DNA from: a virus
DNA length: 28,113 bases
Direction: 5' to 3' (one strand)
IMG/VR virus record: IMGVR_UViG_3300048672_000444
Coordinates: 1 to 28,113 of that record
Part shown: positions 1,148 to 19,905 of the stretch, piece by piece
How positions within the stretch are numbered: position 1 is the first letter of the stretch
How the letters are laid out: each line of letters opens with the position of its first letter
Notes under the pieces: generated by a model
Told to the model about the DNA's origin: nothing
Databases searched by the model: none
Seen by the model: the letters and a program-made list of their open reading frames with translations, nothing else
Position numbers and translations under genes: made by a program

Positions 1148-1491
1148 CTAAATACCTCCTGAGCTTCAACACTTATTTTAAAGAAACGCCCATCATTAGA
1201 TACCTCATAAGTCTTGCTGCAAACAACCTTAACTTGCTCTTCTGCGCTAGAAGTCTCTGATATCAAGAAACTATTCCAAGTACCTACAATACTTAGAAAG
1301 GTCTCAACTGTATTCTTCTCTGCTTTTGTCTGCAAGCCTTCCCAAGTTAGCTTATAGTTACGCTTAACCGAGTTAATTCCAAGCTTAATAACTTGTTCAT
1401 CTACGTTAGTAACCTCAGAAGCAGCACTTGTGAAACTAAGAGAAGGTTGTTTATCTACTAGAAGCTTGCAAGGTAATGGTAATGTTTGCAT
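1144..1491 (-). CDS. Second minor tail protein M-like (115 aa)
   Basis: The protein has the length of lambda gpM and resembles its second half: a KLTWEGLQ strand, a TVETFLSIVGTWNSFLI segment matching the ALESFLAEHGGWKAFLW region, and a C-terminal EEQVKVVCSK...ISVEAQEVF pattern matching QIKVTCAK...FSAEFEQVV. It lacks the FGDGYxQRA signature that the next gene keeps in its N-terminal domain. The two adjacent genes therefore look like diverged M paralogues, each retaining different conserved parts. The start codon shares a base with the stop of the upstream 74-residue gene (TAATG), so translation is probably coupled. The expected role is a structural part of the tail tip near gpL and gpJ. The family assignment is from remembered lambda sequence. 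Confidence 0.6.
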   Translation of the reverse strand: MQTLPLPCKLLVDKQPSLSFTSAASEVTNVDEQVIKLGINSVKRNYKLTWEGLQTKAEKNTVETFLSIVGTWNSFLISETSSAEEQVKVVCSKTYEVSNDGRFFKISVEAQEVFR

Positions 1492-1715
1492 TATACTATT
1501 CCTGTAATTATACCGTTAGTAACCGTTACCGTCTTACCATCTACTGTAGTAAAAGTACCTGAAGCTCCTGTAGTTATTATAGGTTCACAGACCTCTAAAG
1601 GATTAGGAAGGTCTTTCCAAGTCAAGTTATCTGCCCAATACTTATTACCTGCACTTACTGGAGTTCGAGTAGGTGTTTCTGTATAAACGGCACTTTGTTG
1701 TGCTGATATTGCCAT
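1491..1715 (-). CDS. Small tail-tip operon protein, unknown function
   Basis: This 74-residue protein lies between the gpJ-like gene (1 base away) and the M-like pair (overlapping by one base). I do not recognise it as a named lambda protein. The first 50 residues carry polar and aromatic residues (NKYWADNLTWKDLPNP). The last 22 form a short beta-rich module, FTTVDGKTVTVTNGIITGIV, of a kind I have seen at the ends of other small phage structural proteins. There is no signal peptide or membrane segment. Tight coupling with tail-tip genes suggests a minor structural or assembly protein of the tip or fibres; this is inference from position. Confidence 0.6.
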   Translation of the reverse strand: MAISAQQSAVYTETPTRTPVSAGNKYWADNLTWKDLPNPLEVCEPIITTGASGTFTTVDGKTVTVTNGIITGIV

Positions 1716-1716
1716 C

Positions 1717-4700
1717 TTAAACCTCTATATAACTATCTGAAGCTTCAACAAGAACAAATACAGTAGTTCCTGCTGGTAAAGCTTCCTGAAAATCGAACCA
1801 TATACTTGAGAAAGACTCCATTGGTAGTAAAGGGTCGAACTTCTTAGTACCTACTAGCGTTGCAGAGCTAGGTGTAAACCCATCTTCTGTGCTTGCATAT
1901 ACGTTAAAATGCGTAACTCCATACCCTTGACAAGAAGCGTTATCTGTAAGAACCTTAAACTGTGAACCTGTATTAGTAAAGGTAAAGCTGGGAGCTGGGG
2001 GTTCTATCTTACTAAACACCGCAGTAGCTGCTGAAGCGGACTTTCTACCCAGTGCATCTATTGAGTAAACACTAATAGTAATACTTCTGTAGGCTGGTAT
2101 TGCAAGGTCTTGAGCCACAGTAAGTCCTATCCAAGCAGAGCCACCTTTAGTGTCTTTATCAAAAGGAACGTAAATGCTTTTTAGTAAAATTTCTCCGTTA
2201 AGAATATCTATAAGATAGGTATATAAGGTATCATTAAGAGCTTCATTAGCTGTATTATAATTCCAAGTTACCTTTACATCAGATTCTGTAAAGGTCGTAA
2301 CAGAGGTATCTTTAACAACTAAATTTGTTGGAGGCAGCAAAGCTGATATACCGCTTGTTGTAAACTCATAAATGTATTCTTTAAGAGCAGAACTTCTCTC
2401 GTTAGTAGCATCAACAACTGCAATGTTAATCTTATAAGTACCAAACTCTGTGTTCTCAATAGTATAGCTTGTAGAAGGTACTTCATGTGTTTCAAAAGTG
2501 CCAGGAGTTTTAGGTCTGCTTATACCAATACTATAGTTAAAGATTCTATTCTCAATCTTCCCATCAAGGGTAATAGGGTTAGTTGGAGCAGTCCATGTTA
2601 CTTCAAGACTTCTAACAAGTTGGTCACTTACAGCATCAATAGCATATCTAGGCAGTACACTTATGCTGTTATCAGGAATAGGCTGGATAACCTCATAAGA
2701 GATATTACCATAGTCCCCACTTGGTTTATTAATAGTAACTGTTCCATCAATGTAGTCGTATTTAGATAAAGTATTTATAATACCATAGCCTAAATCATAC
2801 ACCCCATCATGGTGTTCTATTGCAACTACGTTATAAACATCATCATCCTTTGTTATTTTAATAACCTTGTAAAGCTTGGGTTTAACTTCAGTTGGGTGGA
2901 CGATAAAGGTACTATTAAGAGGTTCAATGCTTCCACTAATAGGAATAAGAAAGCTTGAGAAGCTGTTCTCTCCTGTTGTTCTTGTTAAGGTGACTGATAC
3001 CTGAGAAGCATCAGCTAGGCTAAGGTAGGTTAAAGTGTACTCAGTGTCAACGACAAGGGTAAGTTCTCTATCTAATTTAACCTCCCAATCAGTTCCAACT
3101 TCGTCATGCGAAACAAATATTCCTGCAATAAGGTCTTCTTGATTAAAGTTGTCGCAAACAGAAACAATTTCTCCTATTTTATAAATCATACCTTCAAAAA
3201 GAACCTTAAAGTCAATGATATTATATAAGAAGCAACTGTTATATAAAGCCCATCTTGCCTTACGAATAGCTTGGGCGCGGCTTGTACACCCAACAAGAAC
3301 AAGGTCTAGTTGTTGAAAGCCATACCTACTCTGTGAAGCAATAGCTGCTCTATCAACTGTTGTTAAGCCAACACCATTCTGGTCAACCTCTGGCACACTT
3401 ACGGTGTTGGTTCTTCCAAAAGCAGCAGGGTCGCTAAACGTAACATTAACATGGTTAAACCTTTGTTCTAAGTCAGTCGAACTATAGTTAAATACCCCGT
3501 CTATAATTGTTGCATTAGTTGCTTGCTTGCTTGGTTGTTGATTTTCATTATCCCACATTAGAGAAAGCTGCCCAAACTCATTAGTAGTCCAATTAGCATT
3601 CATAAGAGTTAAGAAATACATGAAGAAGGTATTAAGATTCTCACGGGTGATAAACTGAGCATTTATAGTGTAGCGTGGTTCTGTTCTACTTAAGGTAGAA
3701 GTTCCAATAGTGTTTTGTTGTATAGCATCTATTCTAAAATAAGTAGTATGATAAGTTATATTAAAAGAACTCTCATATACATTAATATAATAAAAAGTAT
3801 AACTCCCTGGTTGTATATTAATAGAAGCAACTAAAGATGGGGTAGGTGATTCAAACGCTGGGTCACTGCTATTAAATATATTATAACCAATAGCAGTGTT
3901 TATATTATTATTTATTGTAAGTAAGTATCTTGCATAATTTAAAGTTTTAGCAGGATACCAAATAGTGGTTACAGTACCATCGGTATAGTAGTAATCTACT
4001 AAAGTTTTAGTAAAAGAAGCGTCAATAACGTCAGGTACTTCATTAATACTAACACTTACCTCGCTAATATCCACAAGCCCATCACAATACTTAGCAAGGT
4101 CGTAGAAAGCAAAGATATCAATACTATCATAATCAAGCCCAAGCCCTACTCTTACATCTGTTAGGCAATGCAGTAAACACCAAGCAGGGTTATCAGTCCA
4201 AGCCTTAGCTGCTGCAAACATACCGCCCCAACCACCATTAATAGTACCTACTCCAGCAGTAGCGTAGTCTCTTGTAGTTGTATCATAATTAGCAGGAACT
4301 TCTACCTTAATACCCTTTGCTTTAATAAGTATCTCAGGGATACTACCCCCGAATTGCTTTGCATCTTTAAGGGTAATACCTAGTAATGCTTTATAATCAT
4401 AAGCAAGATTCTTATAGATAATTCCAATCGCTTGACTAAAGCTTGTTGCATTTTGACTCTTGTTACTTGTACTATCGTCTGTTAAGCGAACTATCTTAGC
4501 ATACCAGACGTTGCCAACTACACCAACAGGTCTAGTAACCGTTACACTAAAAGCATAACCGCTGGAATACTTAGCTGTTATAGTCTTATTAGTTACAGCT
4601 AAACCCCAGTTAGAGCCATCTGTACTTACATAGTAGTCAAGAGAAACAGTATTACTTATTGTATCCCCATTAGCTTCTATATTATATAAAGCATTAATAG

Positions 4701-5073
4701 TCTGAGTAAGAATAACAGCATCGTTAGTATTAGGTACAGCAATAATAACATGATGACCTATCTCATCTCCTTTAGTGATAGCTGCACTTGTAGCTGCAAG
4801 AGGTGCATAGACTTCTGCAAAACCAGATATAACTTCTTGGTCTGGTAAACCTCTCCTAGAAACAATATCAACAGAATATTCTGTAGCTGGCACTTGTTTA
4901 AGGTAAACGTCGCTTGCTTCAAAGCCTTCTATCTCTCCCTCTGAAAGCATGATGAGAAGTTTGGCAACTTGAGTAGAACTTCCAGTATCGGGATATTCAA
5001 CAGGAGTATGCTGCTTAGGAGTCTTCCCACTACCTGTTATATCGTTAAGATTAAAAAGAGTATCTTGTATCAT
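1717..5073 (-). CDS. J: Central tail fibre / host specificity protein J-like
   Basis: The protein has 1118 residues, close to lambda gpJ (1132). Residues 20-50 (KQHTPVEYPDTG...LLIMLSEGEIEG) match the gpJ N-terminus (GHTPREA...VIDAISEGPIEG). Residues 259-333, including PANYDTTTRDY, NPAWCLLHCLTDVRVGLG and a KYCD motif, match the gpJ core (PSNYNPQTRQY, NMAWCLWDMLTHPRYGMG, QYCD). Residues about 775-1010 contain two fibronectin-III-like stretches. gpJ forms the trimeric central fibre and its C-terminal end binds the host receptor. Between the KYCD motif and the conserved TEPRYTINAQF segment (464-474) there are about 125 residues that lambda lacks, and the DNA there (about 3690-4071) is visibly more AT-rich. 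The gene starts 1 base after the upstream stop, with no clear ribosome site, so coupling is likely. Confidence 0.93.
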   Translation of the reverse strand: MIQDTLFNLNDITGSGKTPKQHTPVEYPDTGSSTQVAKLLIMLSEGEIEGFEASDVYLKQVPATEYSVDIVSRRGLPDQEVISGFAEVYAPLAATSAAITKGDEIGHHVIIAVPNTNDAVILTQTINALYNIEANGDTISNTVSLDYYVSTDGSNWGLAVTNKTITAKYSSGYAFSVTVTRPVGVVGNVWYAKIVRLTDDSTSNKSQNATSFSQAIGIIYKNLAYDYKALLGITLKDAKQFGGSIPEILIKAKGIKVEVPANYDTTTRDYATAGVGTINGGWGGMFAAAKAWTDNPAWCLLHCLTDVRVGLGLDYDSIDIFAFYDLAKYCDGLVDISEVSVSINEVPDVIDASFTKTLVDYYYTDGTVTTIWYPAKTLNYARYLLTINNNINTAIGYNIFNSSDPAFESPTPSLVASINIQPGSYTFYYINVYESSFNITYHTTYFRIDAIQQNTIGTSTLSRTEPRYTINAQFITRENLNTFFMYFLTLMNANWTTNEFGQLSLMWDNENQQPSKQATNATIIDGVFNYSSTDLEQRFNHVNVTFSDPAAFGRTNTVSVPEVDQNGVGLTTVDRAAIASQSRYGFQQLDLVLVGCTSRAQAIRKARWALYNSCFLYNIIDFKVLFEGMIYKIGEIVSVCDNFNQEDLIAGIFVSHDEVGTDWEVKLDRELTLVVDTEYTLTYLSLADASQVSVTLTRTTGENSFSSFLIPISGSIEPLNSTFIVHPTEVKPKLYKVIKITKDDDVYNVVAIEHHDGVYDLGYGIINTLSKYDYIDGTVTINKPSGDYGNISYEVIQPIPDNSISVLPRYAIDAVSDQLVRSLEVTWTAPTNPITLDGKIENRIFNYSIGISRPKTPGTFETHEVPSTSYTIENTEFGTYKINIAVVDATNERSSALKEYIYEFTTSGISALLPPTNLVVKDTSVTTFTESDVKVTWNYNTANEALNDTLYTYLIDILNGEILLKSIYVPFDKDTKGGSAWIGLTVAQDLAIPAYRSITISVYSIDALGRKSASAATAVFSKIEPPAPSFTFTNTGSQFKVLTDNASCQGYGVTHFNVYASTEDGFTPSSATLVGTKKFDPLLPMESFSSIWFDFQEALPAGTTVFVLVEASDSYIEV

Positions 5074-5074
5074 A

Positions 5075-5644
5075 TTAAGCTATTTGGTCTGAGGTTACTA
5101 GGGCTGAAGAAAGAAGAACGCCGCTTGCGTAAGGTCTTCCGAAGATAAGAGAGCAGATACCACCTTGCTCTCTTAGCGTACCAGCCCCATTAAAGAGATT
5201 GCTTGTTTCATTTTGTGCTGCAACAGGGTCACTTACAGACAGATTTGGGGCTAGAAGTAAACTAACTCCTATAGATATACCAGCCCAAGCTAGCATTACT
5301 AATGCCTGTACCCACCAAAGCATACCAAAAGTAACTACAGTTAATACTGCTGCAACAGCTATACTTATCCATCTCCAAGCTTCTTGTTTGCCTTCAATAT
5401 CTTGAATAAATAATAAAGTATCAAATTGTTCTAAAGAAACTAAAGGTATTGCTTCTTTTGAAAGACTTAATTGAAACTTTGTAATACTATTAGATGCGAC
5501 AATACAAATAGGTTTCTTTACAAGCTTACTAAAGGTTTCTTCAGGCAAAAGTCTCTTAAGATGATTAAGAATACTTGCAACCGAAGTAGCTATTATATCA
5601 AACTCCTCTTTATCATCTAAAGAATGAATAACTATCACTTTCAT
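5075..5644 (-). CDS. Tail assembly protein I-like, second copy
   Basis: This 189-residue protein has the gpI architecture: a small alpha/beta N-terminal domain beginning MKVIVIHSLDDKEEF with a SILNHLKRL helix, a strongly hydrophobic pair of helices (about residues 93-132), and a conserved C-terminal segment with REQGG, IFGRPY and GVLLSSALVTSD. Lambda gpI ends similarly (GNPVPLCYGKRRIGGAIISAGIY). gpI is needed for tail-tip assembly but is thought not to stay in the mature lambda tail. It is a clear paralogue of the gene immediately upstream: both share SILNHLK, SNL(Y/F)NGA, REQGG and FGRPY. The start overlaps the upstream stop by four bases (ATGA). The function of the second copy is unknown. 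Confidence 0.85.
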   Translation of the reverse strand: MKVIVIHSLDDKEEFDIIATSVASILNHLKRLLPEETFSKLVKKPICIVASNSITKFQLSLSKEAIPLVSLEQFDTLLFIQDIEGKQEAWRWISIAVAAVLTVVTFGMLWWVQALVMLAWAGISIGVSLLLAPNLSVSDPVAAQNETSNLFNGAGTLREQGGICSLIFGRPYASGVLLSSALVTSDQIA

Positions 5645-6219
5645 AAAGATACATCCGAAGTAGTTAAACCAGAACTAAGTAAAACTCCACCACAATAAGG
5701 TCTTCCAAACACTAAAGGACAGACCCCTCCTTGTTCTCTTATTAAAGGTGCTCCATTATATAGGTTACTAATCCCTTTCTGAGAATTAGCAGGGTCGTTT
5801 GCAAACTCAGGAGTAGGGCTGAGAACTTGTATAAGAAACTGCAAGCCTATAGAGATGGCTATGTTGATAGCAGAAGCAACAAACATACCAAGTGTTGTTA
5901 AAGCACCTTCCGCCGTCACCAAAGCTGTTGAACCTATTGCAGCAACAATAGCACCTCCGCTCCCTTCAATATCCCGCAATATCAATAACCCATCAAATTT
6001 ATTAAACTCCTCTAATAACACCTCTTCTCTAAGAGCTATCGGAGTGAACCTTCCAGTAGAGTCAGTTAAAATAAACTTACAAGGTTTTTTCATAAGCTCT
6101 TTAACATACTTAATCCCTTTTAATTGCTTAAGATGATTAAGGATACTTCTTAACTTCGTCTGACTTGTCTCAAACTCAAACCAATCTTCATCCAACTTCG
6201 CAATAATACTAACCTTCAT
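5641..6219 (-). CDS. I: Tail assembly protein I-like, first copy
   Basis: A 192-residue gpI-family protein. An upstream in-frame ATG at 6273 would add 18 residues, but I chose the ATG at 6217-6219 because the protein then begins MKVSIIAKLDEDWFEFE, in register with its paralogue (MKVIVIHSLDDKEEFD), and the overlap with gpK shrinks from 65 to 11 bases. It contains the SILNHLKQL helix, two hydrophobic helices around residues 86-135 with Gly/Ala-rich faces, and the conserved C-terminus REQGGVCPLVFGRPYCGGVLLSSGL. It lies between the gpK-like gene and its own paralogue, as expected for the lambda order K-I-J. The likely role is assembly or chaperoning of the J-containing tail tip. Confidence 0.87.
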   Translation of the reverse strand: MKVSIIAKLDEDWFEFETSQTKLRSILNHLKQLKGIKYVKELMKKPCKFILTDSTGRFTPIALREEVLLEEFNKFDGLLILRDIEGSGGAIVAAIGSTALVTAEGALTTLGMFVASAINIAISIGLQFLIQVLSPTPEFANDPANSQKGISNLYNGAPLIREQGGVCPLVFGRPYCGGVLLSSGLTTSDVSL

Positions 6220-6943
6220 ATACAAGCCTACAATGTATTCTTCCGACAAAGTGTTCCATAGGTTCTTCAACACTCATATCCTTTTGGTGAATAACTATAC
6301 CATTATGATATATCCCTAGATGATTCCTGCGCCCACCATGAATACCGTCTAATAGAAGAAGGTCTCCGTTTTTAATCCCTTCAAGTTTTGCTTCTCTCTT
6401 AAACCCGTAGGATAAGATATGTTCTTCAAACACATCGTCACAATCTCTTATGTCTTTAAAATCTTTGCTTGCCTTATGTGGTGGTAGTTCCACTCCAAAC
6501 TCATTAAAGTAATAATCCTGCACAAGACTATAGCAATCATGTATAAACCAGATGAAAGGTCTACGGAGCAACTCTCCTCCAAGGGGCTTAGGGTATTGCA
6601 AAGCATCTAAGACATTCGTTCCATCTGTGCCAACTATAAGAAAAGGAACACTAGCTTGTTGTTGTGCCTGAATATCCTCACAAGAAGGAGTACGAAGGTC
6701 TAATCTGCTTGGTCTCTTTTGCTTAAGAGTATGACTATGTACTATTGCTTTAATACCTCCAAGATACTGTACAAGTTCTTTTGCAGGTATTCTAAAATGA
6801 TTAAGCCTATCTTCATGGGTATTTTCTATACAGATAAAACTATCTTCAAGAAGAACCCCACACATCTCTTCAGGATAGCAAGCTTTAGCAGCTTTAGCTA
6901 TCGCTTCTTTTTGTTCTTTGTTTAGTTTAATAGCTTGTTGCAT
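6209..6943 (-). CDS. K: Minor tail protein K-like: JAMM and NlpC/P60 two-domain peptidase
   Basis: This 244-residue protein has two peptidase domains, as in lambda gpK. Residues 1-125 are a JAB/MPN metallopeptidase domain with a complete JAMM signature: Glu25 or Glu26 in YPEEMCGVLL, His69 and His71 in HSH, seven residues, then Ser79 and Asp82. Residues 128-244 are an NlpC/P60 domain with the nucleophile Cys137 in HDCYSLVQDYYF, His208 in RRNHLGIYHNG, and a further His219 in IVIHQ. Both active sites appear intact. In this family the NlpC/P60 domain cleaves peptidoglycan peptides; which step the phage uses it for is not settled. The gene starts 3 bases after gpL and overlaps the gpI start by 11 bases. 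Confidence 0.92.
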   Translation of the reverse strand: MQQAIKLNKEQKEAIAKAAKACYPEEMCGVLLEDSFICIENTHEDRLNHFRIPAKELVQYLGGIKAIVHSHTLKQKRPSRLDLRTPSCEDIQAQQQASVPFLIVGTDGTNVLDALQYPKPLGGELLRRPFIWFIHDCYSLVQDYYFNEFGVELPPHKASKDFKDIRDCDDVFEEHILSYGFKREAKLEGIKNGDLLLLDGIHGGRRNHLGIYHNGIVIHQKDMSVEEPMEHFVGRIHCRLVYEG

Positions 6944-6946
6944 AGT

Positions 6947-7537
6947 CTATCCTATATATTTGTTTTTACCAACTCCAGGGTACTCCTCCCATTCCCCGGT
7001 TCTATTAATGTGAGGGTCACAAAGTATCTGATTCTTAGGCATAGAACCTCTTTCACTATCCATCGGATACCTAAGCTCATAAGCAATACCTTTAACATTA
7101 TGAGAAAGCTTTTTACCAATAGTAAAAGTTAGTTCTGGGGCAGTAACCCCTGCTGCTAAGTAACTCATATCATCAAAGGTTCTGATATACTTAACCTTAC
7201 AGCCAACTAAGTCACCATAAGTAAAACTTAGCTTTCCAAAGAACTTATCAACATTAGCTACTGCAAGTTGAGGTCTACTGAAAGAACCGTCTGAATTCTC
7301 CTCCAATCCGCTTATTGCAATAGGATAAGGTACAAAGACTCTTTCGGGAATGTCTCTATTAATGCCGTTAATCTTTTTTGTAGAAACTCCAAGTGTAAGA
7401 CCTTCGGGACTTCTGGTACTATTAGTAAGGTACAGATTAACAAGCCCTATAAGAGATAATTCTATTTCAAACAACTCTATATAAGCAGGTAGCTCTGCTT
7501 CTTTAACAAGAGTTTCTAAAGGTGTTATTGCCGGCAT
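6947..7537 (-). CDS. L: Minor tail protein L-like
   Basis: A 196-residue protein matching lambda gpL over its first two thirds: LFEIELSLIGLVNLYL corresponds to LWEIDLTEVGGERYFF, and FVPYPIAISGLEENSDGSFSRPQLAVAN (conserved PYPI, SGxExNxxGxxxRPxLxVxN) matches gpL closely. gpL links the distal tail proteins in the tip complex. The C-terminus differs. Lambda gpL (232 residues) ends in a cysteine cluster that holds an iron-sulphur cluster. This protein is about 35 residues shorter and has only two cysteines (in LVGCKV and ILCDP), so it cannot form that site alone. The start overlaps the upstream stop by one base (TAATG). Confidence 0.88.
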   Translation of the reverse strand: MPAITPLETLVKEAELPAYIELFEIELSLIGLVNLYLTNSTRSPEGLTLGVSTKKINGINRDIPERVFVPYPIAISGLEENSDGSFSRPQLAVANVDKFFGKLSFTYGDLVGCKVKYIRTFDDMSYLAAGVTAPELTFTIGKKLSHNVKGIAYELRYPMDSERGSMPKNQILCDPHINRTGEWEEYPGVGKNKYIG

Positions 7538-12860: not shown

Positions 12861-13019
12861 ATGGATGACTTAACAGTAGAGAAACTTAGCAAGCTTTCAA
12901 AAGAAGAACAGCTTGCTTTGCTTAAGCTTTCAGAAAACAAAGAAGCCTTGCTAACCTCTTTAAAAGACAAGACAAGTTACTCCGCACCTCTTAGAGTTCA
13001 AGCGGAGTCCTCTAAATGA
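12861..13019 (+). CDS. Small helical protein, unknown function (52 aa)
   Basis: A 52-residue frame with a ribosome site (ACGGAGAA) about 8 bases before its ATG. It is highly helical and charged: MDDLTVEKLSKLSKEEQLAL, then a Leu-rich LLKLSENKEALLTSLKDK segment, and a basic end. Its TGA overlaps the start of the protease-scaffold gene (ATGA), so the two are probably translated together. I do not recognise the family. Being first in the capsid transcript, it could be a small scaffold-like or connector protein, or simply provide translational coupling; neither is shown. Confidence 0.6.
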   Translation: MDDLTVEKLSKLSKEEQLALLKLSENKEALLTSLKDKTSYSAPLRVQAESSK

Positions 13020-13978
13020 AAGGGGAAGTCTTAAAGACGCTTGTTTGTAATGCTGCCTGGTTTATAGATGACAAAGGTAATGTTATGACAGATACTTGTT
13101 ATGACAATACTATCTTAGCTAAAGGCAATTCAATCCCTCATATTAAAGACCATGAATGGGAGATAGACGCTCAAGTAGGAGATGTACAAGCAGTTTACAC
13201 TAAGTCTCTTCCACTCCGTACTCTAGGTTTAGATAAAGAAGGTGAAACAACCTGCCTTATTATGGATTCTTTAGTTAAAGAAGTCTATAACCCAACAGTC
13301 TTTGCACTTTACTCTGATAATAAGGTAACACAACACTCTATTGGCTTACGCTACAAGCAAATCAAGCTTGCAATAGACTCTCAAGATGAAGTTAATGCGG
13401 CTGAATATGCTAATTGGCTTGAATACTATCCAAAGATTCTTAATAAAGAAGTAGCAGATGCTAGAGGATTCTTCCTTCTAGTAACAGAGCTTGAACTAAT
13501 AGAGAACTCCTGCGTACTCTTTGGAGCTAACCTCTTAACACCGACTTTAAACAGTAATAACTCTCTTGCCTCAAACAAGAGTTCACAACAACCCAACACA
13601 AGGGGAATAACAATGTCTGAAATGACAATGGAAAGTATATTAGCAAAGAATGTAGAGTTAAGCTCTGCTCTTGCCAATGCTAATGCTTCTCTTGCATCTG
13701 CTGAACAACGAGGCAAGCAAGAAGAACAACAACGTATCTTAGGTATCTTAAAAGCAGGCACTACCTTTGGCATAGGTGCTGTCAGCATCGAAAAAGTTAT
13801 CTTAGCAGGTTTTACAAGTGAACAAGCTACTATGAACTTCGAGATGGCTAAAGAAGCTGCACAAGCTATGCAAACTCCTAATACAGCAGGTACTCAACCG
13901 CTTGGTGCTGTTGCAAGTGCTTCTGCACAAGCTACCGGTTCTCAGGGTAAAATTCAATGGTTACAAGGAGTAATGTAA
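13016..13978 (+). CDS. Head maturation protease fused to scaffold (HK97/S78-like)
   Basis: A 320-residue protein with a protease domain (about 1-175), a linker (176-198), and a scaffold region (200-320). The protease follows the HK97 prohead protease (S78) pattern: His46 in PHIKDHEWEI, Ser108 in THE QHSIGL stretch, and the closing motif VTELELIENSCVLFGAN, equivalent to LxEvSlVtxPAN. His46 and Ser108 are the candidate catalytic residues. The C-terminal part is Ala/Gln/Glu-rich and helical, ending in GKIQWLQGVM, like capsid scaffolds. It would hold the capsid shell during assembly and then be degraded. Lambda's gpC instead uses a ClpP/S49-type fold, so a different protease is paired here with a lambda-type shell. 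The start overlaps the previous stop (ATGA). Confidence 0.8.
   Translation: MKGEVLKTLVCNAAWFIDDKGNVMTDTCYDNTILAKGNSIPHIKDHEWEIDAQVGDVQAVYTKSLPLRTLGLDKEGETTCLIMDSLVKEVYNPTVFALYSDNKVTQHSIGLRYKQIKLAIDSQDEVNAAEYANWLEYYPKILNKEVADARGFFLLVTELELIENSCVLFGANLLTPTLNSNNSLASNKSSQQPNTRGITMSEMTMESILAKNVELSSALANANASLASAEQRGKQEEQQRILGILKAGTTFGIGAVSIEKVILAGFTSEQATMNFEMAKEAAQAMQTPNTAGTQPLGAVASASAQATGSQGKIQWLQGVM
13613..13978 (+). CDS. Scaffold protein from an internal start (Nu3-like)
   Basis: The ATG at 13613, codon 200 of the protease-scaffold gene, is in frame and preceded by a strong ribosome site, AAGGGGAA, at about 6 bases. Translation from it gives a 121-residue scaffold starting MSEMTMESILAKNVELSSAL and ending at the common stop. 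The helical, Ala/Gln-rich composition fits a scaffold. Lambda does the same with C and Nu3. The full-length protein would be a minor species and the short form the main scaffold; this ratio is inference. Confidence 0.7.
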   Translation: MSEMTMESILAKNVELSSALANANASLASAEQRGKQEEQQRILGILKAGTTFGIGAVSIEKVILAGFTSEQATMNFEMAKEAAQAMQTPNTAGTQPLGAVASASAQATGSQGKIQWLQGVM

Positions 13979-13979
13979 T

Positions 13980-14933
13980 ATGGCTGAATATAACGGTCAA
14001 TTAGACCCAAGATATTATGACCAGAACCAACAAGGTGGTGGTCGGGTTGCTGATAGAACACCCTCTTTGCGTAAGTTCTATGGTATAGACTGTCATGAGA
14101 CTACTCAACGATGGATAGCTTCTGGTGTTGTTGCAAAAGCAGGTACTATCATGCAATGTGATAACGCAGGTTACTTAGTACCTCATAGAGGTTTTAAAGA
14201 AAAGGCTGTTGTTACTTTCTTAGATACTTTAACATCTGGTAAAGTAGTAACTATTGCCGGTTTAACCTTTACAGCAGGTTCTTCAGGTTGTACAGTAGCT
14301 AATTTAGTTAAAGCTTGGTCTTCTATTCCAGCAAGTACTGGATATGTTGCTGCGGCGTCTGCGGCTCTTGCTGCTGGCATCACTGCTAGAATGGGTACTT
14401 TCACAGCAGGTACTTTAACAAATTACTTGACAGACGAAATCACTGTAGGAGATATCTCTCCTAATGCAGTAGCTTTTGTCTACATAGGAACAGACGTTGA
14501 CCCTGCTAACCTAACAGTAATAACTGACAACGTAGCAAGCTTAACAACAGTTGATATTATCTTAGCACTTCAAAACTTCCAAAAGATTGAAGGTGTACTT
14601 GCTGTTGATGTAGATAATACTTCTGCGGCGGCTTATGCTCCTATTTTTGAGGAAGGTACTTTTTTTGCAGACGATGATGGTAGAAGTTTCTTACGTTGGA
14701 TTACTGCTACTTCAGGGTCTGTCCCAGACAGCGAGAAAGTTTACAACCCTATTACTAATACGTATGTACCTTGTACAGCTTATAATACAGGCTGCTATGG
14801 TACTACCGAAGCTGCTAAAAGAGCTAAACAACGATTTGTTACTGGTTCTGAAATTGACATCTACTTGTTCCAAACAGGGGCAAACGTAGGTATGGAAGAT
14901 TTAACTAACGCTCTAGTAGGGAGTCCGACATGA
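13980..14933 (+). CDS. Head decoration protein (gpD-like) with inserted domain
   Basis: A 317-residue protein between the scaffold and major capsid genes, where lambda encodes gpD (110 residues). The N-terminal half has a gpD-like stretch (IASGVVAKAGTIMQCDNAGY), and the C-terminal part (about 205-317: EGVLAVDVDNTSAAAYAPIF, then FVTGSEIDIYLFQ) looks like the closing part of a decoration domain. In between, about residues 76-190 form an Ala/Thr/Gly-rich beta domain with TIAGLTFTAG and MGTFTAGTLTNYL. That domain recurs in the tail-tube protein. Decoration trimers bind the expanded shell and stabilise it. The insert would presumably sit on the outer surface. The stop overlaps the major capsid start (ATGA). 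Confidence 0.7.
   Translation: MAEYNGQLDPRYYDQNQQGGGRVADRTPSLRKFYGIDCHETTQRWIASGVVAKAGTIMQCDNAGYLVPHRGFKEKAVVTFLDTLTSGKVVTIAGLTFTAGSSGCTVANLVKAWSSIPASTGYVAAASAALAAGITARMGTFTAGTLTNYLTDEITVGDISPNAVAFVYIGTDVDPANLTVITDNVASLTTVDIILALQNFQKIEGVLAVDVDNTSAAAYAPIFEEGTFFADDDGRSFLRWITATSGSVPDSEKVYNPITNTYVPCTAYNTGCYGTTEAAKRAKQRFVTGSEIDIYLFQTGANVGMEDLTNALVGSPT
14205..14549 (+). repeat. Shared beta domain, copy in the decoration protein
   Basis: Residues about 76-190 of the decoration protein. Its segments TIAGLTFTAG...LVKAW and GTFTAGTLTNYL align with LKLGGLTFTA...LAAW and GAFTSGTLANYK in the tail tube. The DNA GGTTTAACCTTTACAGCA (14259-14276) matches 18799-18816 at 17 of 18 bases, which suggests fairly recent shared ancestry. 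Confidence 0.65.
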
Positions 14934-16114
14934 GTGTACTAATTAGTGATGTATATGGTGTTAATGCGGTCTTAGACGGTATTCAGAAAGCCAGAACAAT
15001 GAAGAGACCTTTGTTCTTCCAGAGTTTTACTGGTAATAGAGGCTTATCTGACAGTGATAACATCCGTATGGATATTGAGTTCGCAGTTGGTAACCCAATG
15101 GGTCAACCAGTTAATCCTGACGTAGAAGCACCTGAACTAGATACACCCCAGTACGGTCATAGATTTTATGAATGGACTTATGTTAAGGAACTTGTATCTT
15201 CTCGTATGGATGCAGACTTCCGCAGACGTATTGGGGAAGTTATTGGTGCTGGCGGAGACCCTGTAGTAGCTTTGCAACAAGACTTCTTATCAAGACAAGT
15301 CCTTTCACTTAATGCAATGGACAACTATGAAGAGTTGTTTGCAGGTGATTTGTTACTATATGGTAATCATTTAAGTAAGTCTGAGTTTAGTAATACTGTT
15401 TACTTCGATTTCTTCCGACCAAAGGTTACTACTGACGCAGAGTATCTTGCAGGTGATTGGAGTTTGGCTAACTTGACAGGAACAGATGTTATTAAGAATG
15501 GTTTAACTATTCCTAAGTTTAATGGTAACGGTGGCATTGGTAAACGTGCTTGGAACGCTACTGGTGGTACTATTGCAGTTGACCCTGTTCAAGACATGAA
15601 AACATGGTGTCACTGGGCTTCTCGTGACGAAAACATCGAAGCCTGTCTTATGAGCTTTGATGCTTATGAAGCTTACTATACTATGAAGAATAGTGATAAG
15701 TATAAAGCCTTAAGAGACTTAACTATCAATGTCTCTCCTAATGATAGATTATTAGAAAATCTATCAGCCCCAATGGAAGAGTATGAAGGTGTTACCTTGC
15801 AAACAGTTGACTATATTAATGGTCATTGGATTCCAATCTATACGTATGACGGCAAGTACACTTTGCGTAATGTAGCTAATGTTGGTAAGCAAGCTTTCAT
15901 GCCTAATGGTTATGTTATCTTGATTCCTTCAAAGGATAACCAAGTTAAACGATATGGACGCATCCAACACTTCAAAGCTGGCTGGGCTGCTATGCCTCTT
16001 TGGATTAACCAAGCAATGAATGAGTGGACTGGTGCTTACAAGCAAGAATTCCATAGAGCTTTATTTATGGGCTTGAAACAACCTAATAGGGTTAAAACTA
16101 TCAAGGTTATGTAA
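14930..16114 (+). CDS. E: Major capsid protein, lambda gpE family
   Basis: A 394-residue shell protein (lambda gpE: 341) with the HK97 fold expected of this family. It overlaps the decoration gene by 4 bases. The N-terminal region (MKRPLFFQSFTGNRGLSDSD) has the conserved aromatic/Gly pattern, and residues 45-75 (NIRMDIEFAVGNPMGQPVNP, then APELDTPQYGH) resemble the start of gpE-type proteins. The C-terminal region, YGRIQHFKAGWAAMPLWINQ, has the hydrophobic strand layout of the axial domain. It follows portal, protease-scaffold and decoration, as in lambda. Hundreds of copies form the icosahedral head. There is no obvious N-terminal cleavage region, consistent with a separate scaffold. Confidence 0.85.
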   Translation: MSVLISDVYGVNAVLDGIQKARTMKRPLFFQSFTGNRGLSDSDNIRMDIEFAVGNPMGQPVNPDVEAPELDTPQYGHRFYEWTYVKELVSSRMDADFRRRIGEVIGAGGDPVVALQQDFLSRQVLSLNAMDNYEELFAGDLLLYGNHLSKSEFSNTVYFDFFRPKVTTDAEYLAGDWSLANLTGTDVIKNGLTIPKFNGNGGIGKRAWNATGGTIAVDPVQDMKTWCHWASRDENIEACLMSFDAYEAYYTMKNSDKYKALRDLTINVSPNDRLLENLSAPMEEYEGVTLQTVDYINGHWIPIYTYDGKYTLRNVANVGKQAFMPNGYVILIPSKDNQVKRYGRIQHFKAGWAAMPLWINQAMNEWTGAYKQEFHRALFMGLKQPNRVKTIKVM

Positions 16115-17564: not shown

Positions 17565-17783
17565 ATGGCACGATACACTGTTGATGAAGCTGGTAACTTC
17601 ATCCCAAAAACTACGAGTAAGCCTCAAGAGGCTTTACTTAAAGAACAAATGGAACTAGCTGGTTTAAAAATACCAAAGGAAACCACTTGTGGTAAAGTTA
17701 ATCTAGCTAATCTAAAAGAAACAGCAACCAAAGCAACCAAAGCAACCTTAGCAATCAAAGAAGAAGGAGTAAGCAATGAGTAA
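17565..17783 (+). CDS. Small protein before the tail tube, unknown function
   Basis: A 72-residue protein with a strong ribosome site (ACAGGAG, 17553-17559). The C-terminal third is low-complexity and charged: KETATKATKATLAIKEEGVS. It overlaps the tail-tube gene by 8 bases. No family is recognised. The N-terminal RYTVDEAGNFIPKTTSKPQE could be an extended segment that binds a partner. By position it may be a tail assembly factor or a minor tube component; there is no direct evidence for either. Confidence 0.6.
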   Translation: MARYTVDEAGNFIPKTTSKPQEALLKEQMELAGLKIPKETTCGKVNLANLKETATKATKATLAIKEEGVSNE

Positions 17784-19905
17784 TACAAAGTTTCACAAAA
17801 GAGCTACGGTCATCTATGCTTGTAAACAGAAAACAAGAGGTAGTAGGGTTACTGTTAGTACGGCTGATACTGTAGGCACTATTTCCGTTTCAGGGACAAC
17901 TGTTACTGGCACAGGTACAAGTTTTATAACACAAGCAACAGAAGGGGCTTATCTTTATGATGCTAATGCTTATGAAGTTGGTAGAATATTAAGTATTAAT
18001 TCTGATACCTCTATTACTCTGTATGAAAGCATCCTTGCAACGTCTATTCTTGCAACTGCTACTAATACTAAAAGAGCTGGGACAAGTGCAGGAACTGGGG
18101 TTAATACCGGAGCTTCTGCTTTTGATGGTTCTAGCTATAGCTTCGGCTTAGGTAATGCTAATGCTATCCGTGTTAAAGAAGGTATGAAGTTTACTTTTGA
18201 AACAGAAACAGGCGCAGCTACTTATACTGGAGATGAGTTAGATAGATACGAACAAACTTGGGTTAAAGACGAGTTTGTAACAGTTGACTTTGAAACCTTT
18301 GTACCTATTTTAGGCGCTGTCTTTAGTAATGTTATTGCAGATAGTGACTTACCTTTACCAGACTTATACGAAGCTTGTGGATTGGGTGTTGTTTCTACAA
18401 ATACAAATGTAGCTTACACTAATACTGTTGCTTCTAATGAGTTCCTTGAAGTAGAGTTTAGACTAGCAAGCCCAGACTTAACAGTAACTGCCCCATACTC
18501 TTCTACAGAAAAGGTTTATGTTGGCTATGACTTAGTAGGTACTATTGATGCGGATATAGCAGATATAGGTGAGCGGGGTACTTTCAAGTTCATGCTTAAA
18601 GGTAATACTGCTGGGGTTGTTATGCTTCCTAAACGTGTACCTGACTATAAGCTACAGTCTTTAGAAATTGCAGAACCTTTTAACTCAAGTCCTGTTAATT
18701 CAAATATCCGTCTTGTTGCTTTAGACTTATTATTGCAGCAAGCTAGTTTGACATTTGACGCTGCAACGGCAAGCATAGGGGAGACTCTTAAACTAGGAGG
18801 CTTAACCTTTACAGCAAACGATAATATTACAAGAGGGCAAGCTTTAGCCGCTTGGTCTGATATAGCTAGTGGGAGTGCTTACGCAGATATTAACCCTTTA
18901 ATAACTTCTGTTGCTACCTTTGGTGCTGCTGTTACGACTGCTTCTAATAACTTAACCTTTTCATCAGATATGGAGGCTACACTTCCGGTAGGTTCTATGT
19001 TGTTTAGAAACTTTGACAACGCTTATATAGGTACTATTGCAACTATAGCAAGTGGAGGTTTAACCGCTACTTTAACGTCTAATGCTGCTGTAGCTTCTAA
19101 CAATGGTACTGTCTTTAAGTACATTACTAAGACTGCTTTAGTCTATGGAACAGGTAACTTAACAGTAACTTTAGGAGGTTCTTCTGTTACTTTTGTAAGC
19201 GCACAGACTTTAACGGCTGGTACTGCTTTATTTGATAATGCAGGTACTTTTGTAGGTGTATTAGCTACTGTAGCTGCTAACGGTCTATCCGGTATTTTAA
19301 AGTATCCTGCTGAAGTAGCAGTTGCGGGTGCTGCTTTTAACTACACAACTAACTTCTTATCTGCCTTTAACGGAGCATTTACTTCTGGTACTTTAGCTAA
19401 CTATAAGACAGCAGTTATGGATGCTACCCATGTCTTAATAACTGCTGTTAAGATTAAAGCCAACTTAGAAAGTTTAAACTTAACCGGCACAGCAACACAA
19501 ACAACGGTAACTCCTTTAGCTTCTGTTGATACCTATGCTTACCGTACTAAACCAACAGTAAGTAACCTTTGTATTGGTAAACTTAATGCTCCTAATATAA
19601 CTGGTTTAGACCTTCAACGGTTCAAGTTGTCTTGTGAAACAGGTTTTCATCAAGGTGCTGTTACAACAGATATTACAGTCAGTGTTAAAGAAGACATTGA
19701 AGGTATCTTCTTTGAACCTAATAGTCATGTTGGGGTAGAAGCTGCACTATGGCTAGAATGGGGACAACCTTCTAAGAACTCCTTAGTTCAATGGAAGTTC
19801 AGTATTGTTACTATATCAAAGGTAAGCCCTTCTGAGATTGGTAACTTCCGAGCTTATGATGTAACATTAAGAAATATTGGAAAATTCACTATGACACTTT
19901 CATAG
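17776..19905 (+). CDS. V: Tail tube protein with large nested insertions
   Basis: A 709-residue protein where lambda encodes the 246-residue tube protein gpV. Tube-like sequence surrounds the inserts: residues about 110-320 (YSFGLGNANAIRVKEGMKFT, DLVGTIDADIADIGERGTFK) and 575-709 (ending FRAYDVTLRNIGKFTMTLS). Between them, about 324-572 is an insert. Its two ends (324-375 and 528-572) match the inserted domain of the decoration protein, and the middle (about 385-523) holds two copies of another beta repeat; a third copy is near the N-terminus (33-96). The inserts, probably on the tube's outer surface, would give a tail studded with beta domains. It ends just before a strong terminator. Confidence 0.75.
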   Translation: MSNTKFHKRATVIYACKQKTRGSRVTVSTADTVGTISVSGTTVTGTGTSFITQATEGAYLYDANAYEVGRILSINSDTSITLYESILATSILATATNTKRAGTSAGTGVNTGASAFDGSSYSFGLGNANAIRVKEGMKFTFETETGAATYTGDELDRYEQTWVKDEFVTVDFETFVPILGAVFSNVIADSDLPLPDLYEACGLGVVSTNTNVAYTNTVASNEFLEVEFRLASPDLTVTAPYSSTEKVYVGYDLVGTIDADIADIGERGTFKFMLKGNTAGVVMLPKRVPDYKLQSLEIAEPFNSSPVNSNIRLVALDLLLQQASLTFDAATASIGETLKLGGLTFTANDNITRGQALAAWSDIASGSAYADINPLITSVATFGAAVTTASNNLTFSSDMEATLPVGSMLFRNFDNAYIGTIATIASGGLTATLTSNAAVASNNGTVFKYITKTALVYGTGNLTVTLGGSSVTFVSAQTLTAGTALFDNAGTFVGVLATVAANGLSGILKYPAEVAVAGAAFNYTTNFLSAFNGAFTSGTLANYKTAVMDATHVLITAVKIKANLESLNLTGTATQTTVTPLASVDTYAYRTKPTVSNLCIGKLNAPNITGLDLQRFKLSCETGFHQGAVTTDITVSVKEDIEGIFFEPNSHVGVEAALWLEWGQPSKNSLVQWKFSIVTISKVSPSEIGNFRAYDVTLRNIGKFTMTLS
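17872..18063 (+). repeat. Beta repeat in the tail tube, copy 1
   Basis: Residues about 33-96. Core: tsF...(A)GaYLYDANAYEVGRILSI, then a DTSITL strand. It shares with copies 2 and 3 a strand with bulky hydrophobics (L-F/Y), a short polar turn, then (I/V)G-x-(I/L)-x-(S/T)-(I/V). Confidence 0.5.
18928..19125 (+). repeat. Beta repeat in the tail tube, copy 2
   Basis: Residues about 385-450: NNLTFSSD, then LPVGSMLFRNFDNAYIGTIA, TIASGGLTATLTSNAAVAS and GTVFKY. It aligns with copy 3 (LTAGTALFDNAGTFVGVLAT, VAANGLSGILKYPAEVAVAG, AAFNY). Confidence 0.6.
19129..19344 (+). repeat. Beta repeat in the tail tube, copy 3
   Basis: Residues about 452-523, directly after copy 2. GNLTVTLGGSSVTFVSAQ leads into the L-x-AG-x-xLF...VGVLATVAANGLSG core shared with the other copies. 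Confidence 0.6.

Follow-up and report, generated by a model that had tools for sequence, protein, structure and literature searches.

Two structural proteins of one virus, a head decoration protein and a tail tube protein, each carry extra sequence within their fold, and an initial annotation made from the DNA alone had claimed that the extra sequence is the same inserted domain in both. The questions raised by this locus are whether the two inserts are homologous, how each copy reached its carrier and what such a domain might do on the surface of a virion. The window, meaning the whole stretch of DNA that was analyzed, is a 28.1-kb virus contig that is siphophage-like, with a lambda-like head and tail-tip module. 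The genes of the module encode terminase, portal, protease, decoration protein, capsid protein E and tube, a tape measure protein containing an SLT domain, and tip proteins in which minor-tail, NlpC/JAB and J-type domains occur. The features under discussion are listed in Table 1.

Table 1. Coordinates in the window of the two carrier proteins, their inserts and the major capsid protein
Feature	Position	Strand	Evidence
Decoration protein of the head (lambda gpD/SHP type), 317 aa including the insert	13980..14933	+	Fold and gene order
GLTFTA-type inserted domain in decoration protein, residues ~74-197	14199..14570	+	Profile match; loop empty in relatives; AlphaFold
Major capsid protein, lambda gpE type	14930..16114	+	PHROG phrog_29 E 9.9e-12; homologues carry the annotation "major capsid protein E"
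Major tail tube protein, 709 aa, with inserts; two fused tube domains as in T5 pb6 / P74-26	17776..19905	+	VIA-align
N-terminal tube insert, residues ~33-96, small separate domain family of related tubes	17872..18063	+	Alignment; family profile
GLTFTA domain, first half in tube, residues ~319-376	18730..18903	+	Decoration-only profile iE 2.5e-6; hhalign E 2.1e-7; MAFFT
Nested module R1, residues ~386-449, within split domain	18931..19122	+	Tandem similarity to R2
Nested module R2, residues ~464-526, within split domain	19165..19353	+	Tandem similarity to R1
GLTFTA domain, second half in tube, residues ~524-582	19345..19521	+	Decoration-only profile iE 1.5e-4; hhalign E 5e-4; unsplit L134

The carriers proved to be the proteins that had been named, a gpD-type head decoration protein (Z about 10) and a tail tube (Z 20-21), and the gene order runs protease, decoration protein, major capsid protein. 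In an AlphaFold model, the core of the decoration protein (residues ~30-72 and 198-298) gave VIA-align Z scores of 9.9-10.4 to 1c5e, 8xqb, 1td0, 1td3 and 6xgq. The gpD (beta-tulip) fold was recovered with Z 9.9 and 2.2 Å over 94/95 residues of 1c5e, and at 2.2-2.6 Å across the matches. Its gene is flanked by those for the head protease and capsid protein E, an order also seen in phages SNW-1 and phiAP1. Lambda gpD and phage 21 SHP have the same core fold and gene position, but they are proteins of about 110 residues without an insert in the loop, to which the window protein adds ~120 residues. The tube model (residues 5-709) gave Z 21.5 to the P74-26 tube 8ed0 (294 residues) and 20.7 to the T5 tube 9iny (300 residues), and the double tube domain, with ~300 residues aligned, is common to the window tube, T5 pb6 and P74-26. 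The window tube carries its extra domains in internal loops, whereas the extra domain of pb6 is an Ig-like one at the C terminus (PMC8718954). The N-terminal insert of the window tube matched the profile of its own family, in which this copy is included, at iE 3.5e-23. That family has the motif TG.GT.F....G.Y......G...SI.SDT...L, occurs in tandem in L021 and is missing from other tubes.

Elsewhere in the window, a 52-codon ORF at 12861-13019 overlaps the start of the protease ORF at 13016-13978. Since the protease of L009 is a single longer ORF with ~70 extra N-terminal residues compared to the window, the overlap may reflect a frameshift, a split gene or an assembly error. On the minus strand, at 5075-6273, two adjacent tail proteins of 189 and 210 aa resemble tandem paralogues by eye, and a common C-terminal motif, LREQGG.C.L.FGRPY..GVLLSS.L.TSD, was likewise seen by eye. 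Prophage relatives were sought as a clue to the host, and a portal search of 121 genomes of the Polynucleobacter genus returned only one weak match.

The short matches on which the claim of a common domain had been based are all present. GLTFTA occupies decoration residues 94-99 and tube residues 342-347, KAW at decoration 111-113 corresponds to AAW at tube 358-360, and GTFTAGTLTNYL at decoration 139-150 is paired with GAFTSGTLANYK at tube 533-544. The claimed extents stood as a match, with the borders refined to those in Table 1. An 18-base DNA segment had also been put forward, and its two copies do agree at 17/18 bases; as extra evidence this adds little, since the six shared residues and the codon usage of the phage give such agreement or better with P=0.03. 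BLASTP of the decoration protein against the tube gave E=0.004 for one half and 0.006 for the other. Smith-Waterman alignment of the insert gave p~6e-7 with the joined tube halves, which were picked after the match was seen, and p~1e-3 with the unjoined tube. The independent test was a profile of 21 decoration domains with the tube left out. This profile matched the tube at E=1.7e-7, while 0/500 shuffled tubes and the reversed tube did not score. The profile-profile comparison that had been proposed as a check was made with hhalign and gave E=2.1e-7 and 5e-4 for two collinear halves, so the match does not fall below chance. MAFFT, unprompted, distributed complete decoration domains between two stretches of the tube, residues ~319-376 and ~527-582. 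With bacterial rows only, MAFFT did not place the second half at tube residues ~527-582, so the case for that half depends on the decoration copies and L134. A profile made from the window's two copies alone matched L009 (49% over 79 residues, E 2e-14).

Another explanation for the likeness is convergence of Thr/Ala/Gly-rich sequence with no homology. The composition of the inserts is indeed biased and the plain pairwise E-values are modest at 0.004-0.006, but the composition-matched shuffles, the collinear order of the two hhalign matches and the strong unsplit copies in the tubes of relatives (L031 iE 1.1e-17, L134 1.3e-10) all speak against it, and we regard convergence as extremely improbable. 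That the two inserts are homologous and cleanly inserted is, in our judgment, close to certain.

The arrangement of the tube copy was then defined. The two tube stretches are, by alignment, collinear halves of one domain that are parted by two tandemly duplicated modules, R1 and R2, of ~63 residues each (shuffle p~2e-5). The border between R2 and the second half is approximate, with an overlap of a few bases in the coordinates given. Kinship of R1 and R2 with the N-terminal tube domain was considered and was not significant (iE 0.4-0.5). Since split and unsplit versions of the domain share one site, site C, in the tubes of relatives, the window copy is best read as a domain at site C with the R1/R2 pair inserted later into its post-helix loop. 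Insertion of one domain into a loop of another is known from FliD (PMC5072837).

The two structure predictions used alignments without shared domain rows, which keeps them independent. Because of this choice, the model of the tube insert is of low confidence, with a second half below pLDDT 50 and only a strand-strand-helix at 337-364 visible; thus, that the split copy closes into one fold is an assumption based on sequence. The decoration insert, which lies between residues 73 and 198 of the modelled protein, was modelled with high confidence (pLDDT about 90-96 over residues 81-140). It consists of strands, two helices (106-113 and 122-131) and further strands. The best fold matches to insert residues 73-198 were the extra domains of tail sheaths, at VIA-align Z 5-7.9, and the T4 gp11 domain scored Z 5.6-5.9; for these sheath accessory and gp11 domains (8kee, 9khy, 8foy, 1el6) no sequence similarity was found. 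FliD D2-D3 (Z 3.1-4.2) and flagellin 4nx9 (Z 4.0) resembled the insert weakly. All of these fold matches have middling scores, under Z 8, and could stem from an arrangement that is widespread. A profile link to the native FliD D3-like region had an hhalign probability of 0.1%, which is no better than the reversed control.

The failure of the initial annotation to recognize the domain is borne out by the libraries. Sequence searches of both proteins against Pfam, PHROG, NCBIfam and the PDB gave nothing significant, and neither did searches of 26 domain copies against Pfam, PHROG and the PDB. No Pfam Ig family was matched among the 26 members at E 0.1, and Ig folds were not found among the matches listed for the insert, which is not proof of absence. 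Searches of phage and plasmid records by tblastn with the domain or the decoration protein returned nothing significant, and scans of viral contigs that used either protein as a single sequence gave no match. The GLTFTA-type family is therefore defined here by its own alignment (A5), and the window's decoration copy, itself part of the profile, matches it over the full length, 1-118.

Scans with the domain alignment yielded 22 viral and 8 bacterial loci, and a tube scan yielded 44 tube loci. In the decoration proteins, the insert always occupies one fixed position, a loop that follows a GK.IAH.G strand and precedes.KIAGVL.DVDA. About 30 related phages have the domain in this loop and six do not; the carriers number 21 in the first set and 20 in the second, partly the same phages, and all six phages without the domain belong to the second set. 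L151 is without it, and its core is identical to that of the carrier L024 at 118/159 residues (74%). The decoration insert is a clean plug-in at a fixed loop. A second type of decoration-like protein (L028-L030 and L033-L036) has the domain as well.

The domain is rarer in tubes than in decoration proteins. Most related tubes are without it, so a tail can function in its absence. In plain tubes, site C holds ~36-45 residues. The L134 tube has the whole domain, unsplit, at this same site as the window; this tube (L134:8983-11349) also has further inserts in its first tube domain. Split versions at site C are found in the window and in L037, L038 and L040, where the decoration-only profile gave E 3e-8 for L040, 4e-4 for L037 and only 0.08 for L038. 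In the L031 tube, the domain lies at another site, site B. A second group of tubes has ~104-123 residues at site C, and in L009 and L025 these form a different domain of HGL..YNG type. The HGL..YNG domain (L009:9416-10891 and L025:4061-5536) is weakly DUF5666/E1_FCCH-like and has a second copy at another tube site. Across proteins and organisms, copies of the GLTFTA domain conserve the motif GLTFT...G.(F/Y)(T/S).G.L.

The bacterial carriers were assigned by Pfam to FlgE, FlgK, FliD, flagellin and RTX/DUF4214, with counts in this sorting inflated by overlapping loci. The domain is thus found in the flagellar hook, hook junction, cap and filament, and the RTX/DUF4214 carriers have three to four tandem copies. 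It occurs mainly in Polynucleobacter, a freshwater genus, where 20/121 genomes of the genus, including named Polynucleobacter, were positive; wider samples gave 7/249 genomes of the family and 4/398 of the phylum, and two of the matches in the phylum sample are in proteins that look S-layer/RTX-like by eye. One FliD carrier (L062:1-2577) also has a C-type lectin domain (Pfam E 2.5e-9), which suggests an adhesive flagellar cap. L015 contains identical 842-aa FlgK ORFs at 1299-3824 and 4513-7038, each with two domain copies, in opposite orientation and a few hundred bases apart, which is either an inverted duplication or an assembly artefact. Because the same domain is present in phage virion proteins and in bacterial flagellar proteins, phages and bacteria would take such exchangeable surface parts from a common pool.

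The initial annotation had also concluded that the domain spread to both the capsid and the tail of one virion. Its presence in both proteins stands, but need not have come about by copying from head to tail. Recent copying between the two genes at the DNA level was not supported by codon use, as identical codons at shared residues were near expectation (10/17 compared to 7.4, and 8/21 compared to 8.5). In a tree of the domain copies, the one from the window's decoration protein fell among the decoration copies with support 96/92, although with more rows this set was no longer starred, and the tube copies were not joined to the decoration copies. A sister relationship of tube and decoration copies within a genome was rejected for L031 (p-AU 0.013) and L134 (p-AU 0.008), so copying within a genome is not the rule and the same virion can acquire the domain twice. 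For the window it was not rejected (p 0.32-0.40), because the window's copies have long branches. We infer that the family moves by recombination between phages and the surface proteins of freshwater Burkholderiales, and not from head to tail within a genome.

Promiscuous phage surface domains are known mainly as Ig-like folds. On tailed phages, Ig-like domains have been described on T5 pb6 and pb10, T4 Hoc and lambda gpV (Fraser et al. 2006, as cited in PMC10684548 and PMC9230969), and weak adhesion to carbohydrates has been suggested for them (Fraser 2006, as cited in PMC9230969; PMC7602432). T5 has such domains on both its tail tube protein, pb6, and its head protein, pb10 (PMC8718954, PMC7602432); pb6 forms 40 trimeric rings with the Ig-like domain on the outside (PMC8718954). 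The GLTFTA domain resembles the phage Ig-like domains in being optional, exchangeable and found on head and tail proteins. It differs from the all-beta Ig sandwich in its two helices and the lack of a Pfam Ig match, and it sits inside loops, unlike Ig-like domains at a terminus. In Vibrio phage XM1, an insertion domain of the sheath resembles FliD D3, and gene exchange with the host was proposed by its authors (PMC10457771). There, too, a domain with a link to the flagellar cap is placed in a phage tail protein. However, the XM1 link is at the level of fold only and concerns the sheath, whereas the domain described here has sequence-level homologues in FlgE, FlgK, FliD and FliC, and on the phage side it is carried by a capsid decoration protein and a tail tube.

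We think it reasonably probable that the family is a self-contained, exchangeable surface domain of ~115 residues that is suited to loops of proteins forming repetitive surfaces. In this virus the domain sits in one loop of the gpD-type decoration protein and also in a loop of the tube protein's second tube domain, and the tandem modules R1 and R2 would later have entered the tube copy in the loop after its helices. As gpD and tube proteins build many-copy structures, hundreds of domain copies would stud the head and tail. These copies could then provide weak multivalent adhesion to cells or glycans and so raise the chance of infection, as has been suggested for the Ig-like domains of phages. 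This last is the least certain step, and we propose adhesion only tentatively, though it is the best supported function: it is favored by the analogy to Ig-like domains and by the other carriers, which are exposed surface polymers and include one FliD with a C-type lectin domain. No ligand-binding motif was found in the domain.

Another possible explanation is that the domain is a neutral or stabilizing passenger that recombination dropped into tolerant loops of abundant structural proteins, and that it stays because it is harmless or packs against neighboring subunits, as happens in the tube of phage YSD1, where domain 2 packs against its neighbor (PMC8718954, PMC7385642). Its patchy presence in close relatives such as L151 and L024, the unrelated domains that the same tube site takes and the tolerance of the tube copy itself for R1 and R2 would all fit. 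A passenger would not be expected to be kept in most decoration proteins of the phage group (20 with the domain and 6 without), to conserve its motif across proteins and organisms, or to recur in surface polymers and not at random; we hold this explanation to be possible though not likely. The domain could also bind nothing and instead carry O-linked glycans or surface charge that hide virions and flagella from grazers and antibodies or keep them from aggregating. Flagellar proteins are often glycosylated in other bacteria, the domain lies in the outer part of flagellar proteins and its sequence is rich in Ser, Thr, Gly and Ala throughout, but composition alone is weak evidence and such a role seems rather unlikely to us. 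Less likely again is that the domain recognizes itself or the same partner, in which case a phage studded with it might bind to host flagella or cells on which the domain is displayed, or be carried along with them.

Optional Ig-like domains on the head and tail of one phage (T5) and the insertion of a FliD-D3-like domain in the XM1 sheath were already known, and among open-licence papers no description of the present domain family was found. What is new is a family that is named in no library used here and is present in both a gpD loop and a tube loop, with sequence-level homologues throughout the flagellum and with pairs of proteins that have or lack the domain, or have it split or unsplit. 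The finding marks a gpD loop that tolerates inserts of 120 residues, and offers a case of domain-in-domain insertion for which an unsplit relative is available for comparison. Because natural pairs with and without the domain exist at a fixed loop, the long-standing question of what optional domains do on the virion surface becomes testable. An unnamed domain family thus reaches the capsid, tail tube, flagellar hook, hook junction, cap and filament, which is evidence at the level of sequence, beyond that of fold, for surface parts common to phage coats and bacterial flagella.
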